Shown here: in pieces, positions 159 to 38,859 of the stretch
How the letters are laid out: each line of letters opens with the position of its first letter
Position numbering within the stretch: position 1 is the stretch's first letter
Source: Chthoniobacterales bacterium
GTDB taxonomy: Bacteria; Verrucomicrobiota; Verrucomicrobiia; Chthoniobacterales; UBA6821
Length of the DNA stretch: 44,424 bases
NCBI GenBank assembly: GCA_019747895.1
Contig: JAIEQF010000012.1
Span: forward strand, 1-44,424
Direction of reading: 5' to 3'
Made by a program: the position numbers and the translations under genes
Notes under the pieces: generated by a model
Databases searched by the model: none
What the model was told of the DNA's origin: nothing
What the model saw: only the letters and a program-made list of their open reading frames with translations

Positions 159-1094
159 AGAAAATGCAAAAAATTCTTCGGCTGTTTTGGTAGTAGACAT
201 TGCAACTTCTTCAAGCGTAAGACCTCTAATTTGAGCAATTTTTTCTGCAACAAGTCGTGTGTGCCATGGCTCTGCGCGTTGCCCTCGGTAAGGATCTGGA
301 GCCAAGTAGGGACAATCTGTTTCGACCATGTAAGCATCTGCAGGAATTGCAGCAACCGTCGCGCGAACGAGTGGCGCATTTTTAAACGTCACAATTCCAG
401 TAAAAGAAACGAGGTGTCCTAAGGCGATGACTTTTGCAGCCTGCTCTGGCGTTCCGCCAAAACAATGAAAGACAGCGCGTAATTTTCCTGTGTATGGTTT
501 TAAAATCCGCAACGTTTCCTCCCAAGCAGCATTTGAACCAGCAACATCACGCTGATGAATGATGACATTGAGCCCCAGTTCAACAGCAAGGTCTAACTGC
601 TGTTGAAAAGCACTGGCTTGATTTTTTTTCCAGAGAGATTTTGTTCCAATTGCTTCACCAGCTTTTAAATTCGCTGAGACTGATGAAGAGTAAGGAGCCG
701 ACGGCGCACAGGCCCGCAGTTTACAAGAGGTACTCGAGGACCCGAGCACCGGCGCGACGCAGCTATTCGCAGTCTCAGTAGAATTTGAAGGCTGGTGAAA
801 ATAGTCGATGCCAATTTCGCCTATGGCCACGACCTTGGGATGCCTCGCTAGCTCCCGAAGCGCTGAAATAAAATCACCTTTTTCATCATCAATTTCTGTT
901 GGATGAATTCCGATGGCGACAAAGACCGATGGAAAGCGCTCGGCCAGCGCTAAGACAGATCGACTGCTTTCCAGACCTGTTCCAATAGAAATGATTCGCG
1001 TCACGCCAGCATCATGAGCACGCTGGATAAGAGCAGGAAGATCATCTGCAAATTTGGGATGATCGAGATGAGCGTGGGTTTCGACGAGTTTCAT
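150..1094 (-). CDS. tatD: TatD-family metal-dependent hydrolase with an in-frame palindromic insertion
   Basis: Amidohydrolase-fold TatD DNase family, 314 residues against a usual 255-290. The metal ligands are visible: H7 and H9 in ETHAHLD, E93 in GEIGIDY, H170 in VIIHQRD, H200 in AVFHCF and D250 in VETDCPY. Members act as 3'-5' exonucleases or DNases in DNA repair and turnover; the substrate here is inferred from family. Residues about 104-143, a Ser/Ala/Cys-rich low-complexity stretch between the E93 strand and the helix beginning ASAFQQQLDLA, are encoded by a palindromic repeat element (667-786) in the same frame. The reading frame and all catalytic residues survive. The exact size of the natural loop at this point is uncertain, since TatD proteins vary there. 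The ATG start is immediately followed by the conserved HxH motif. Confidence 0.93.
   Translation of the reverse strand: MKLVETHAHLDHPKFADDLPALIQRAHDAGVTRIISIGTGLESSRSVLALAERFPSVFVAIGIHPTEIDDEKGDFISALRELARHPKVVAIGEIGIDYFHQPSNSTETANSCVAPVLGSSSTSCKLRACAPSAPYSSSVSANLKAGEAIGTKSLWKKNQASAFQQQLDLAVELGLNVIIHQRDVAGSNAAWEETLRILKPYTGKLRAVFHCFGGTPEQAAKVIALGHLVSFTGIVTFKNAPLVRATVAAIPADAYMVETDCPYLAPDPYRGQRAEPWHTRLVAEKIAQIRGLTLEEVAMSTTKTAEEFFAFSLK
654..799. repeat. Palindromic element copy 1, inside tatD
   Basis: The 120-bp core at 667-786 runs from AAATTCGCTGAGACTG to CAGTCTCAGTAGAATTT, whose ends are near-perfect inverted repeats. It contains the family signatures GATGAAGAG, ACGGCGCACAG and CCGAGCACCGGCGCGACGCAGC. 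Outside the core, TTCACCAGCTTTT (from 654) and AAGGCTGGTGAA (to 799) extend the inversion with sequence found at no other copy. The core is 120 bases, a multiple of three, and is open in the tatD frame. Confidence 0.85.
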
Positions 1095-5771: not shown

Positions 5772-6466
<695 letters not shown>

Positions 6467-9520: not shown

Positions 9521-9664
9521 CTAGTGTGTTGGAAATTCGCTAGTGCGGATGAAGAGCAAGGCGCGACGGCGCACAGACGAGGAGTGTATATGGAAATACT
9601 CGACAAGTCGAGCACCGACGCAACGCAGCTCTTCGCCGCAATAGTAGAATTTACAATGCACTAG
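9521..9664. repeat. Palindromic element copy 3, at the 3' end of hpf
   Basis: The core runs from AAATTCGCTAGTGCGGATG (9533) to AATAGTAGAATTT (9652) with the family motifs ACGGCGCACAG, GAGTGTATAT and CGAGCACCGACGCAACGCAGC. The copy-specific outer arms are CTAGTGTGTTGG (from 9521) and ACAATGCACTAG (to 9664). The hpf stop codon is part of the right outer arm. It fills most of the 201-base gap between scpA and hpf. Confidence 0.85.
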
Positions 9665-10011: not shown

Positions 10012-10033
10012 AAGTTTTAAAAAATTTAAAAAA

Positions 10034-10066
10034 AGTAATAGCCACAAAAGAACGCAAAGAACACAA
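10034..10066. repeat. Single tract of the ACAAAAGAACACAAAG type
   Basis: The sequence AGCCACAAAAGAACGCAAAG followed by AACACAAAA lies in the spacer between hpf and the phosphodiester glycosidase gene. The same short-period sequence occurs as inverted pairs at 20954-21032 and 37438-37596, but here only one arm is seen. Confidence 0.6.
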
Positions 10067-10077
10067 AAAAAGCTGAT

Positions 10078-10863
10078 TTATTTTAACTTCAGCCCCAAAA
10101 AATTCCTAACGGTGCCCATTTCTGATTGAGAAAAAGGTTCTGGCGTGAGATCAACCCAGAGAGCGCTCGAGGACCCTCCATCCAAATTGAGAGCTCGCTG
10201 CATCGGATGTGTTGGAAAAAACCGCGGGGCTGCAGCCAACAAAACACGGGCAGCATTGGCGAGCGTGACAGGAGAAATGACGCCGATCATCCAAAGACCG
10301 TGACCATCCGTAGCCACAAACGTCCGACGCGCAATTCGTGTTCCTTCTAAGCCAGCAACGGGAGCTTTATGATCGATTAAAAAAGGTCCCGCTTGTAGCA
10401 CTCCTATTGTTTCCACAGGCATGCTCTCTCCCACTCGCAGCAGCTGCAACTTCTCTCCCGCCATGACAACGAATCCACTTAGGAGCCGCGCCGTTTCTTG
10501 AGCGTGCACTACTTTTCCTTGACTGATCATTAATCCCAACGGTTTTCCATCGGGATGAAAATAAGCTCCGTTCACCCCAGCTAAGAAATGCTGCTCGCTC
10601 ATCACTTGTGCTAGCTTTTTATCTCGCAGAGGATTGTCGATCACCTGCAACTCGCAATTCTGTTCCTGGAATACAATCGCCGTAACAACGGCTTCCCTAT
10701 CTTTTTCTACAGTCGAAATTTCTCGCAAGGTCACTGACTTTACCAAAGCGCCTCCAGGGAGAGCGCCTCGCTCCCTGCTTTTGATGACATGCCATCGTGC
10801 GCTAGAGGCGACCCCCAAGCTAGCGATGCAAAGAAAAATAAGAAAATACCAAGAGCGCTTCAT
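10078..10863 (-). CDS. Secreted phosphodiester glycosidase (NAGPA-domain) family protein
   Basis: 261 residues with an N-terminal hydrophobic signal (YFLIFLCIASLGVASSA). The NAGPA domain is marked by the conserved FLAGVNGAYFHPDGKPLGL block near residue 95, RTFVATDGHGLWMIGV in the centre and the terminal LNLDGGSSSALWVD. Family members cleave phosphodiester glycosides such as GlcNAc-1-phospho-linked groups, as in the mammalian uncovering enzyme and bacterial cell-wall enzymes. The substrate here is unknown but would be extracytoplasmic. It is 11 bases downstream of cobA-hemD, so may be cotranscribed, although the functions seem unrelated. Confidence 0.85.
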   Translation of the reverse strand: MKRSWYFLIFLCIASLGVASSARWHVIKSRERGALPGGALVKSVTLREISTVEKDREAVVTAIVFQEQNCELQVIDNPLRDKKLAQVMSEQHFLAGVNGAYFHPDGKPLGLMISQGKVVHAQETARLLSGFVVMAGEKLQLLRVGESMPVETIGVLQAGPFLIDHKAPVAGLEGTRIARRTFVATDGHGLWMIGVISPVTLANAARVLLAAAPRFFPTHPMQRALNLDGGSSSALWVDLTPEPFSQSEMGTVRNFLGLKLK

Positions 10864-14647: not shown

Positions 14648-14884
14648 TTAAAATGAACGAGCAGAAAAACTACATGATGGGGCAAGCACGAGATAGGGAA
14701 CCCTTTTTTCTAGCTGAAATTTTTCTTGTTGTTGGAGGTTGTCAATTTGTTGCACGAGCTCCTCTTCATCAGGATCTGTCTCTTTTTGTTCTTTCCCAAA
14801 AGCAATCTCATGATCGATATCACTCTTGTCCAAAATGAAATCAGGAGCAGAAATAAGAGGACTCAATTTGCTTTGTATAGTCAA
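14648..14884 (-). pseudogene. Possible small gene interrupted at its 5' side by a miniature element
   Basis: The open frame of 78 residues has coding-like composition (LSPLISAPDFILDKSDIDHE, DPDEEELVQQIDNLQQQEKF) but begins inside the terminal repeat of the element at 14876-15040. If that element and one TA are removed on paper, the frame continues upstream without a stop for 18 more codons (ending SYCRFFNVSTEVG) until a TGA. No convincing start codon is present in that extension. It may be a remnant of a disrupted gene or chance. No homologue is recognised. Confidence 0.3.
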
Positions 14885-15040
14885 ATTACTTAGAAATTAC
14901 AGGGAAGAACGCAGGAATTTTTAGAAAAGGCCAGGCCGAAGACCGAGCGCTATCTAAACGATAACGTGACGGGATGAGAACGCAGTTTTTCCTAAAAAGG
15001 ACAAGTCAATTGCTTGTAAGTTCTAAGTAATTTGACTATA
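14876..15040. mobile_element. 165-bp miniature inverted-repeat element (copy B)
   Basis: It has the same 20-bp terminal repeats as copy A and is in the opposite orientation, identical to it by eye over the whole length except for one missing A/G in an AGGAAAAGACTG context. It is flanked by TA on both sides. It lies in the 582-base hemA-hemC gap, which otherwise holds only the possible gene remnant at 14648 and about 170 bases (15041-15208) in which I see nothing recognisable. Confidence 0.85.
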
Positions 15041-15208
15041 GACCTACTTCGGTTGAAACGTTGAAGAACCGGCAATATGAGGTCTGTTCAACATTTCAAT
15101 CCTGTTCGCAGCAACAAAAAGTATTCTTATTTCAAATTAAACAATCGTTTTGGACAGCAGTGATTTGCTCTGTAGATCAGGCTCTGTTTAAGAGTTTAAG
15201 GGACGGGC

Positions 15209-18960: not shown

Positions 18961-19105
18961 AAAACTGTCTCAGAAATTCGCTGATGCGGATGAAGAGCCA
19001 GGAGAGGCGGCGCACAGCGGCTGAGTGTATAGTTAATACTCGATGACGCGAGCACCGACGCGACACAGCTCTTCGCCGCAGCAGTAGAATTAATGAGACA
19101 GTTTT
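18961..19105. repeat. Palindromic element copy 4, at the 3' end of queD (uninterrupted type copy)
   Basis: The core runs from ATTCGCTGATGCGGATGAAG to CTTCGCCGCAGCAGTAGAAT. The centre GAGTGTATAGTTAATACTC is itself palindromic. The outer arms AAAACTGTCTCA (18961-18972) and TGAGACAGTTTT (to 19105) are specific to this copy and lead into a T-rich stretch on the minus strand, so the whole could end queD transcripts. The queD stop directly abuts the arm. Confidence 0.85.
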
Positions 19106-20927: not shown

Positions 20928-20953
20928 CCGCAAAGAATATTTAGAAAAAAAGG

Positions 20954-21032
20954 AATAGCCACAAAAGAACACAAGGAACACGAAAAATTAAAAATCTTTT
21001 CTTTGTGTTCCTTGTGTTCTTTTGTGGCTATT
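20954..21032. repeat. 28-bp perfect inverted repeat after spmAB
   Basis: The arm at 20954-20981, beginning AATAGCCACAAAAGAACAC, is perfectly complementary to 21005-21032, with a 23-base AT-rich loop. The arm is built of repeated AGAACACAA-like units. It can form a very stable hairpin and may end spmAB transcripts. The same sequence recurs at 37438-37596 and, as one arm, at 10034. Confidence 0.85.
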
Positions 21033-21078
21033 TTCTTTCTTTTTCCTGTGAGTTTCTTGTGATTAAATAGCAACCTTC

Positions 21079-23615: not shown

Positions 23616-23758
23616 AAAATTGCTTTTATACTCTACTGAGGCAGGGTACTACTGCGTCACTCCGGTGCTCGTCGCTTCACGTATTAATATACGCTCAGCG
23701 CCTGCGCTCCGAGGTTCCTTGTATTACATCTGCCTCAGCGAACCTAAAAGCAATTTTA
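23616..23758. repeat. Palindromic element copy 5 (inverse orientation), after the membrane-anchored unknown
   Basis: Read on the minus strand it matches the family: CGCTGAGGCAG, GCGCAGGCGCTGAGCGTATA, TACGTGAAGCGACGAGCACCGG and CTGCCTCAGTAGAG. It is a divergent subtype shared with the copy at 29211. The outer arms AAAATTGCTTTTA (23616-23628) and TAAAAGCAATTTTA (to 23758) are specific to it. The left arm starts at the base after the TGA stop. Confidence 0.8.
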
Positions 23759-29210: not shown

Positions 29211-29352
29211 AGAGTGTATTCCAAATGCGCTGAGGCTAGTGAAGTACAAGGCGCGAGGAGCACAGACGCTGAGCGTATATATAATACGTGAAGCGGTGAG
29301 CACCACAGCAACGTAGTAATTCACAGCATCAGTAGCATTTGGGATGCGCTCT
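29211..29352. repeat. Palindromic element copy 6, between nadE and rplQ
   Basis: A divergent member with AAATGC replacing AAATTC at the core ends (CCAAATGCGCTGAGGC to GCATCAGTAGCATTTGGG). The interior has CACAGACGCTGAGCGTATAT, AATACGTGAAGCGGTGAGCACC and ACAGCAACGTAGTAATTCACAG, matching copy 5 best. The outer arms AGAGTGTATTCC and GGGATGCGCTCT are specific to it, with two G-T-type mismatches. It is 3' of the rplQ terminator. Confidence 0.8.
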
Positions 29353-34711: not shown

Positions 34712-35080
34712 ATGAGATCCTGCTACACTCTTAGTGAAACGGAATTAGAATTATCAATCTTTGCGAAAACGCATGCTCGGAAGACAGCGATTGCTGGAGT
34801 TGATCAACAGCATCTGCATATCTCACTCCATGCAAAACCAGAGGAAGGCAAAGCGAATATTGAGTTGATCAAATTTCTTTCTGAATATTTCAAAATCCCC
34901 AAGACACAAATTGTCTTACGTCATGGAAAACAGAGCCGTTATAAAAAAGTTGTTTGCCGATTGGAAAAAAACCAGCGAACCACAAGAGCAGAAATTATTG
35001 AACAGCTCACTAGACTTCTTTCCAAACTCGCTGAGACTGATGAAGTACCAGAGCCACACCGCAATTCGGAGCATCAGTAG
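34712..35080 (+). CDS. DUF167 (YggU-family) protein
   Basis: 122 residues. The domain occupies about 8-95: ELELSIFAKTHARKTAIAG, HISLHAKPEEGKANIELIKFL and IPKTQIVLRHGKQSRYKKV, matching DUF167, a small fold of unknown function. I used the ATG at 34712; a TTG at 34703 with GAGG upstream is an alternative that adds three residues. The final 17 residues and the stop codon come from a truncated palindromic element, so the original C-terminus has probably been replaced. Confidence 0.85.
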   Translation: MRSCYTLSETELELSIFAKTHARKTAIAGVDQQHLHISLHAKPEEGKANIELIKFLSEYFKIPKTQIVLRHGKQSRYKKVVCRLEKNQRTTRAEIIEQLTRLLSKLAETDEVPEPHRNSEHQ

Positions 35081-35096
35081 AGTTTTGAAAGAATTC
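35013..35096. repeat. Palindromic element copy 7 (truncated), at the 3' end of the DUF167 gene
   Basis: The core ends AACTCGCTGAGACTGATGAAG and CATCAGTAGAGTT are present, written here as CTCGCTGAGACTGATGAAG and CATCAGTAGAG, but the middle is reduced to about 30 bases. The outer arms GACTTCTTTCCAA and TTGAAAGAATTC are specific to it. It supplies the TAG stop of the DUF167 gene and ends four bases before the apaG stop. Confidence 0.75.
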
Positions 35097-35099
35097 TAC

Positions 35100-35477
35100 T
35101 CAAATTGGAATCAACTCAAATGCCGGAATCATTGCTATCACAGCCTCTCCCTGATCAGTTACGGCCAGATAAGCCCCTTCAGCCACAGCACATCCTGCAG
35201 TAACATGGTAGCTGTTATAAGAAAATTTTTCACCGGGCAATAAATAAGGAAATTCTCCCACCACTCCTTCTCCTTCCATCACGGCAACATCGCCTCCTTC
35301 TTCGCGCACCACCCACTTGCGTCCTTTCACGGTCAATGCTTGATCGCTGTTATTGTGAATCGTGATGAAGTAGACAAAGGCATACGGCTTGCTTAGTGGC
35401 CTCTCTAAATCAGGATCTTCAGTCACACCATTGATTTTGACCGTGAATCCTTCAAGCAAGCGTGGTGTCGATTTCAT
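35100..35477 (-). CDS. apaG: ApaG-domain protein
   Basis: 125 residues from the ATG at 35477, which precedes STPRLLEGFTVKINGV; the upstream codons are repeat sequence. The ApaG/DUF525 beta-sandwich is indicated by AFVYFITIHNNSDQALTVKG, RKWVVREEGG, GVVGEFPYLLPGEKFSYNSY and GAYLAVTDQGE. In Salmonella ApaG is linked with cobalt sensitivity and Ap4A metabolism; the molecular function is unknown. It is convergent with the DUF167 gene. Confidence 0.92.
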   Translation of the reverse strand: MKSTPRLLEGFTVKINGVTEDPDLERPLSKPYAFVYFITIHNNSDQALTVKGRKWVVREEGGDVAVMEGEGVVGEFPYLLPGEKFSYNSYHVTAGCAVAEGAYLAVTDQGEAVIAMIPAFELIPI

Positions 35478-35498
35478 CAATGAAAAGAAAAAAGAAGA

Positions 35499-35622
35499 AA
35501 TTAACCGCAAAGAACGCAGAGAGCGCAAAGAAAGGAAAATAAAATTTTGAAAAATAGAGAGCCTAGCAAATTTTTATACTTTTAAAAATTCTTTGCGTTC
35601 TCTGCGTTCTTTGCGGTTAATT
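35499..35622. repeat. 34-bp inverted repeat between apaG and aspS
   Basis: The arm at 35499-35532, beginning AATTAACCGCAAAGAACGCA, is complementary to 35589-35622. The units are close to 9 bp (AAAGAACGC, AGAGAGCGC). The right arm includes the aspS stop codon. It is a strong hairpin that could end aspS transcripts. Confidence 0.8.
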
Positions 35623-37413: not shown

Positions 37414-37437
37414 TTTAAAAAGTTAAGAAGGATGAAG

Positions 37438-37596
37438 AGAATAGCCACAAAAGAACACAAAGAACACAAAGAAGTTTTTAAATCAAAAAAATCTTTTAAT
37501 AGACTGAACAGCAAAGAAGTTTGAGCCTCTCAAAAAAGCAAGCCAGCACTACCAATGAGGACAAATCCTTTTTGTGTTCTTTTGTGGCTATTCTCT
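37438..37596. repeat. Inverted repeat of AGAACACAA-type units between hisS and aspS
   Basis: The tract at 37438-37474 (AGAATAGCCACAAAAGAACA and onward) is complementary to 37568-37596, around 90 bases of AT-rich spacer. It is the same sequence family as 20954-21032. The right arm overlaps the last codons of hisS. Confidence 0.8.
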
Positions 37597-38859
37597 TTCT
37601 TTTTTCAGCTCCTCGCAGAGCCAACCCATCAATCCTTCAACCGCCACAGCACTCTCCTCCCGCGTGCTCAATCGTTTCACTTTAAGCTGAGGCCATTCGG
37701 CACCGATCATCACAGCAAAAGAAGCCCCACCATTTTCTGCAGCACTAAATTGTTTTCCAACACGCTCAGGCGCCAATGAAAAAACTACTCTCAACCCAGC
37801 ATCCCGAAGTTGTTGCGCGAGTCCGATGGCCTGAGGACGTTGCGCCTCATCGGCAATGACAAGATAGACTTGGCAAGCTGAAGTCGCAGCATGAAACGCT
37901 TCTTCGCGCTGAGTGGCGAGTGGAACTTCTTTTAAAAATTCCAACATCACTGCATCTCCCATGCCAAATCCAACGGCGGGAAGCGTCACTGCTCCATTGC
38001 TAAGATCGTGAATCAAGCGGTCATAGCGACCTCCTCCAGCAACCGCACGCAAACTTCCTTGCAGGGCGAATGCCTCAAAAACAATTCCGGTGTAGTAGGC
38101 AAGCCCGCGCACAATGGAAAGATCTGGCTTAATAAAATCACGCAAACCTCGTGCAGCAAGCTCCTCGAGGAGCGGCTCCAGAACAGGAATGCGAGGCGAT
38201 GCCATGAAGTCGCGCAATTTTTCTACCGTCAATCCCGAATGCTCCAACCCCGCTAATTTCTCCTCAGTCTTTTCTTGAGGCTCTCGTTCCATTTTGTCGA
38301 CGATGTTGAGGAACTCTGTCGTGCTTTCTTTTTTAATCCCAAATTGTTCAAGAAAATCGTGCCAAGCAAGACGATCGCTCAAGCGTATGGTGACATCCTT
38401 AGGACCAAATCCAAAATGACGCAACAGGTCAATTAGCAAGGCGATGATTTCTGCGTCAGCTGTCACGGAGCACTCCCCCAACAAATCACAATTGAGTTGC
38501 AAAAACTCCCGCAGCCGGCCTCGCTGTTGCCGTTCATAACGAAAACAATTTCCAACATTGAACCAACGAAGCGGCTTTGCAAATTCACGATCATGAGCTG
38601 CTACGATGCGGGCCAAGGTAGGCGTCATCTCCGGACGCAAGGCTACAGGACGATCGCCACGATCCGTAAATTGATAGAGCTGCGTCAAGATTTCTCCTCC
38701 GCTATTTTTTTTCTGATAAAGCTCCAACGATTCTAATGTTGGTCCATCAAATTCGACAAATCCGTAACGCCGTGCGACATTACGCCACCCCTCAGTGAGG
38801 TAGCGTCGCCGCGCATAATGGCAAGGCAAGAGATCTCTAAATCCAGAAAGGGGTTTCAT
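37588..38859 (-). CDS. hisS: Histidyl-tRNA synthetase
   Basis: 423 residues. The class II core has FRDLLPCHYARRRYLTEGW at the start, DGPTLESLELYQKK, VALRPEMTPTLARIV, the motif 2 CFRYERQQRGRLREFLQLNCD (as CFRYERQQRGRLREF and LQLNCDLLG) and the His-specific VRGLAYYTGIVFEAF. The anticodon-binding C-terminal domain starts around residue 330 (VYLVIADEAQRPQAIGLAQQ). It charges tRNA-His. The DNA repeats on its 3' side do not reach the catalytic domain. Confidence 0.96.
   Translation of the reverse strand: MKPLSGFRDLLPCHYARRRYLTEGWRNVARRYGFVEFDGPTLESLELYQKKNSGGEILTQLYQFTDRGDRPVALRPEMTPTLARIVAAHDREFAKPLRWFNVGNCFRYERQQRGRLREFLQLNCDLLGECSVTADAEIIALLIDLLRHFGFGPKDVTIRLSDRLAWHDFLEQFGIKKESTTEFLNIVDKMEREPQEKTEEKLAGLEHSGLTVEKLRDFMASPRIPVLEPLLEELAARGLRDFIKPDLSIVRGLAYYTGIVFEAFALQGSLRAVAGGGRYDRLIHDLSNGAVTLPAVGFGMGDAVMLEFLKEVPLATQREEAFHAATSACQVYLVIADEAQRPQAIGLAQQLRDAGLRVVFSLAPERVGKQFSAAENGGASFAVMIGAEWPQLKVKRLSTREESAVAVEGLMGWLCEELKKERE

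Follow-up and report, generated by a model that had tools for sequence, protein, structure and literature searches.

How can a long palindrome lie within the gene of a conserved enzyme and leave the gene readable, and where did such a sequence come from? The window, that is, the whole analysed stretch of 44,424 nucleotides from a Chthoniobacterales bacterium, raises this question with a palindromic insert in its tatD gene. The closest parallel is RPE1, the Rickettsia palindromic element that was reportedly described by Ogata et al. in 2000 and 2002. For more than 20 years RPEs have, to our knowledge, been described as specific to Rickettsia. They are repeats of 100–150 bp that occur within the reading frames of Rickettsia genes; similar elements are present in Wolbachia (PMC3767692).

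Extent, fold and spread of the element

The insert, which the earlier note had placed at 667–786, is larger than that. Across 80 copies, flank pairing is about 90% at the fourth base inside each end of the model and returns to background within two positions beyond the ends. Since the pairing of the arms stops there, the element measures 144 bp and the 120-bp stretch is its core (Table 1).

Table 1 Features of the element, its host gene and its further copies in the window
Feature	Positions	Strand	Remark
Full palindromic element, 144 bp	655..798	+	arm pairing stops sharply at both positions
Conserved 120-bp core	667..786	+	core as named in the earlier note
Left outer arm TCACCAGCTTTT	655..666	+	varies between copies, pairs with right arm
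Right outer arm GAAGGCTGGTGA	787..798	+	
Host gene tatD, 314 aa	150..1094	-	
Further copy	9521..9664	+	outside genes
Further copy, 143 bp	18962..19104	+	outside genes
Further copy, 142 bp	29211..29352	+	outside genes
Further copy, 142 bp	23616..23757	-	outside genes
Split copy	5787..6069	+	split by a different palindromic element (about 5840-6013)
Truncated copy	35009..35100	+	

The element folds as a single long hairpin, and 30 of its 46 pairs show compensatory changes. The sequence of the outer arms is nearly free (the 128 copies have 83 distinct left arms), yet of 1408 cells 1233 (88%) are Watson-Crick pairs, where independent arms would give 632; mispairs in the outer stem are G-T in 100 cases and A-C in 22, and the genic antisense copies show 60 G-T and 12 A-C mispairs over the whole structure, all of these being counts that related copies have inherited and not independent events. 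The G-T excess persists where the host mRNA is the complementary strand. What is constrained is therefore probably the forward strand, either as RNA or as single-stranded DNA, during the life cycle of the element itself. For the paired arms only, the compensatory changes could instead stem from arm-to-arm correction by quasi-palindrome template switching and not from selection on a folded strand, an account that is compatible with a mobile element. Arms that differ between copies and still pair are what such correction would leave behind, whereas the asymmetry of the outer-stem mispairs points to a functional single forward strand. We hold this account to be a serious possibility, if not quite an even one, and correction between the arms may contribute to their pairing.

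The core was found at 39 other places of the genome with 74–82% identity. A covariance-model search identified at least 82 copies in this genome, at least 81 in the congener G005, 56 in the congener G002, and 24, 21 and 7 in three more congeners. With stricter filters, the same kind of search found no element in 136 other genera (286 genomes of the class). Weak matches in one of these genera, g2 (E 1e-4 to 6e-8), were lost under the stricter filters. Two exact patterns did not find the element in viral contigs, a plasmid collection gave chance-level or no matches, including by tblastn of three element peptides, and searches of solved structures with element peptides gave chance-level matches only. 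No part of the window matched Rfam.

Other repeats share the window. A palindromic repeat with ends TATAGTCAAATTACTTAGAA, about 165 bp long, is present at 5840–6008 and 14876–15043 in inverted copies that are 97–98% alike; one of them interrupts a copy of the 144-bp element. Inverted repeats that are rich in AT and share the motif GCCACAAAAGAACACAAAGAACAC are located at 10028–10084, 20945–21041, 35490–35622 and 37431–37604.

Relation to RPE1 and to other palindromic repeats

The earlier note had called the sequence unrelated to the Rickettsia elements. This part of its claim has to be given up, since the forward frame matches the RPE1 profile of NCBIfam, TIGR01045: 11 of 28 forward-frame peptides match (best E 2.2e-8), and the first forward-frame member aligns to positions 1–48, the full length of the profile. 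None of ten shuffled or reversed control peptides matched, nor did the antisense-frame peptides, the frame that is used in tatD. A six-frame search of 38 relatives with the profile gave matches in this genus only. The best, in the congener G003 (38.7 bits, cut-off 30; E 1.8e-9), spans exactly the 144-nt element, and this genome gave a partial match of 32.4 bits (cut-off 30). Among 388 Verrucomicrobiota genomes only this genome matched, and none outside the genus. Most copies of the element score below the curated cut-off of 30 bits.

The resemblance goes beyond the profile. Like RPE1, the element is a palindromic repeat of 48 codons (144 bp, within the range of about 100–150 bp, in a single hairpin) that is found both in genes and between them, and it is inserted in frame in conserved protein genes, none of which is broken (29 of 29 genic copies, as defined below). 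Its host belongs to the Verrucomicrobiota and not to the Rickettsiales, a departure in taxonomic habit and not in structure. It differs from RPE1 in that 18 of the 29 genic copies use the antisense frame, which is outside the RPE1 profile, and in that a 3-bp target duplication is visible here, where that of RPE is listed as unknown (PMC2229807). We found no report of RPE1 outside the Rickettsiales in the literature searched, of which our coverage is incomplete.

Judged by these profile matches, the element is most likely a member of the RPE1 family in another phylum, and we infer common ancestry with the RPE1 of Rickettsia. The view of the palindrome as a second independent case of in-frame insertion is therefore probably wrong, and it is preceded by a report of intragenic in-frame repeats in Opitutus terrae (PMC3733652). 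An unrelated element might still have converged on RPE1 behaviour, its profile match arising from shared amino-acid composition or from the constraints on a translatable palindrome. The many copies under the curated cut-off, the unmatched antisense-frame peptides and the mere 48 residues covered by the profile would agree with this. They have to be set against an end-to-end match at the element's own 144-nt boundaries with E down to 1.8e-9, against its restriction to one genus in 388 genomes of the phylum and against the negative controls, and we consider convergence unlikely. We lean towards regarding RPE1 as a mobile family that has crossed phyla and is no oddity of Rickettsia, in which the length of 48 codons, the 3-bp duplication and two opposite stop-free frames allow life in genes. 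With its numerous copies, visible empty sites and 3-bp duplication, a relative of RPE1 from a distant phylum provides a comparison for testing mobility, frame selection and spread between phyla.

Other translated palindromes were compared with the element. The Wolbachia palindromic element (WPE) and RPE4, RPE6 and RPE7 are likewise in-frame palindromic inserts in genes of Rickettsiales (PMC3767692); they differ from the element, whose scanned members matched no NCBIfam RPE model besides RPE1. REPs are also palindromes translated within conserved genes, and intragenic repeats of the GTAG type are most numerous in O. terrae, of the same phylum, and those of the CGTC type in R. conorii (PMC3733652), so that in-frame palindromes in Verrucomicrobia are not new as such. 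REPs are 20–40 bp long, carry a terminal GTAG or CGTC tag and are often tied to tyrosine transposases (PMC3733652), whereas the element has 144 bp and no terminal tag, its GTAG being internal. No Y1 transposase was detected in G001 or G003, each with at least 20 copies of the element, and a REP/RAYT reading was rejected for this reason.

Coding MITEs (ERIC/RU-1, RU-2 and the 107-bp Correia element; PMC2229807, PMC10969869) resemble the element as small non-autonomous inverted repeats with open frames and target duplications; they have characteristic terminal repeats, often with TA ends, whereas the outer arms of the element vary with pairing kept. The element itself shows terminal inverted repeats and a target duplication and has no transposase of its own. 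DDE transposases are present in most congeners; the DDE_Tnp_1 and rve families did not clearly track with the element, nor did any candidate transposase. The element would be moved by an enzyme that acts in trans. Coding palindromes of nematomorph mitochondria are also inverted repeats inside functional coding genes, but there both arms encode conserved protein regions and, in the part of the source available to us, they are not described as one mobile family (PMC6649704).

Insertion in frame in conserved genes

A copy was counted as genic if the open reading frame around it has at least 250 codons, with 25 or more of them on each side of the copy. By this definition 29 of the 80 copies examined with their flanks in this genome are genic. 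Their length is divisible by three in all 29 cases, compared to 16 of the 51 other copies (Fisher p 1.3e-10); 28 are of standard length, and in one a nested repeat raises the model length to 207. Only two of the six frames are used, 18 copies being read in the antisense frame and 11 in the forward frame. Genic copies of G005 behave similarly: of 26 copies, 24 use these two frames and 23 have a length divisible by three, compared to 7 of 22 others (p 7e-5). Of 28 genic copies in this genome, 21 have an open forward frame and 26 an open antisense frame; the corresponding values for shuffles are 12% and 22%, so that the absence of stops on both strands is largely intrinsic to the element.

A second, GC-rich repeat of about 60–80 bp, whose peptide resembles CGVAAAGSTAVRQPVRARLAG, is nested in frame in or beside copies of the element and also occurs between genes. 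Its sites are L093:2595-2801, the host reading frame of L084 downstream of the element, L187, and L057 at about 1270–1330.

The element is copied in frame into tatD and into at least 28 other genic sites of this genome. Because of the frame rule, we infer that the insert is translated as part of the host proteins, and these, of which some are essential elsewhere, are probably longer by about 48 flexible residues. A guanylate kinase that bears an RPE is translated and active (PMC2229807). Altogether, we consider it very probable that the element is a non-autonomous mobile element of the RPE1 family whose insertions keep the frame, are tolerated in loops and are translated. A full-length insertion would add 144 bp (48 codons) and a 3-bp target duplication, 147 bp in total, and would for this reason keep the reading frame at any site. 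With two of six frames free of stops, one per strand, about one third of the possible genic insertions would be readable. Copies in surface loops would be tolerated and translated as a disordered insert with a near-neutral effect on the host protein, and selection would remove insertions that are out of frame or contain stops.

Alternatively, the element could be removed or bypassed before or during translation, by RNA processing, ribosome hopping or splicing, and the mature proteins would then lack it. A stable conserved hairpin with compensatory changes might serve such a process, and the enzymes that bear the inserts are highly conserved. Removal would, however, free both length and stops from constraint, and the genic copies show no such freedom: the length of all 29 is a multiple of three, and the frame used contains no stop; moreover, the excess of G-T follows the forward strand even where the mRNA is the reverse strand, so that host mRNA is not the selected form. 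This leaves removal a very improbable explanation.

Curated models gave names to hosts of the inserts: RibD, RsmE, a UbiA/MqnP-type prenyltransferase, TsaC/Sua5, PEP carboxylase, acetate kinase, an asparagine-synthase-type protein, a penicillin-binding protein, a HAD hydrolase, PriA, triosephosphate isomerase (tpiA), MiaB, homoserine dehydrogenase, an NAD(P)H-hydrate repair enzyme, PurD and the large subunit of glutamate synthase. One open reading frame (L015:486-2675) joins dephospho-CoA kinase (coaE) and the transcription terminator Rho and includes two copies of the element, of which one lies within the kinase and the other close to where kinase and Rho meet. A 641-aa open frame of G005 (L183) matches both the coaE and the Rho parts, consistent with the same join. 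The sole TIM gene of this genome carries an insert, as does its sole gene of the TatD family, and these hosts are thus not decayed spare copies. The family thereby offers about 50 natural experiments on conserved enzymes with an insert of one kind.

Empty sites and the copy in tatD

For 28 genic sites of this genome, orthologues in G005 or G002 were found with a query of concatenated host flanks and then aligned. At 27 of the 28 sites at least one orthologue is without the element, L011 being ambiguous; the insertions L009, L011 and L013 are common to this genome and G005, and L084 to this genome and G002. Of 42 comparisons with an empty orthologue, 17 gave a net difference of exactly 49 codons, the most frequent value, and most of the rest gave 44–48; 49 codons correspond to an element of 144 bp plus a 3-bp target duplication. 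Identical trinucleotides were observed at both ends of 20 of 128 copies, where 3.9 were expected and none of 1000 shuffles gave more than 12; direct repeats of 4–6 bases at the ends showed no excess. TCA, for example, occurs once at the empty orthologous site L162 and on both sides of the element in L016.

In tatD, the palindromic insert is real and in frame, as the earlier note had proposed: the 120-bp core is a multiple of three and has no stop in the tatD frame. The gene reads the element from the minus strand, in the antisense frame, as residues 99–147 approximately, and Pfam TatD_DNase matches the product in two stretches with the insert in between. The forward frame of this copy contains a stop; the copy is a member of the family by DNA similarity. 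Its ends carry no matching 3-bp repeat (GCT and AAA), so the duplication is not intact. The net gain over the orthologues of G005 and G002 is 41 residues; it falls short of the length of the element because the host loop itself differs from theirs, with roughly 20–25 bp lost or replaced.

The suggestion that all metal ligands are intact was borne out, as H7, H9, E93, H180, H210 and D260, which we take to be the ligands from established knowledge of the family, are invariant across 25 sequences. An AlphaFold2 model of the protein, built with 24 homologues, has a mean pLDDT of 87.8, with values below 50 at residues 107–137 and mostly above 90 in the remaining barrel; its nearest solved folds are TatD nucleases. 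The insert is accordingly predicted by the model to be a disordered surface loop on an intact barrel.

In the named genome collection, the neighbours of this TatD belong to the Verrucomicrobiota, most of them being metagenome assemblies of Chthoniobacterales, which agrees with the guess of a PVC-like bacterium made from the letters; the closest is LacPavin_0419_WC53_MAG_45_28, with 85% over the matched part. That the loop is ancestral tatD coding sequence which resembles a repeat by chance can practically be dismissed: TatD loops after E93 do differ in length, but the insert is absent from the orthologues of congeners and other genera, none of which has the same loop residues, and the same sequence recurs dozens of times, both in unrelated genes and between genes. 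The tatD gene of G005 is without the insert, yet an intergenic copy of the element is located directly beside it (L057:1386-1503).
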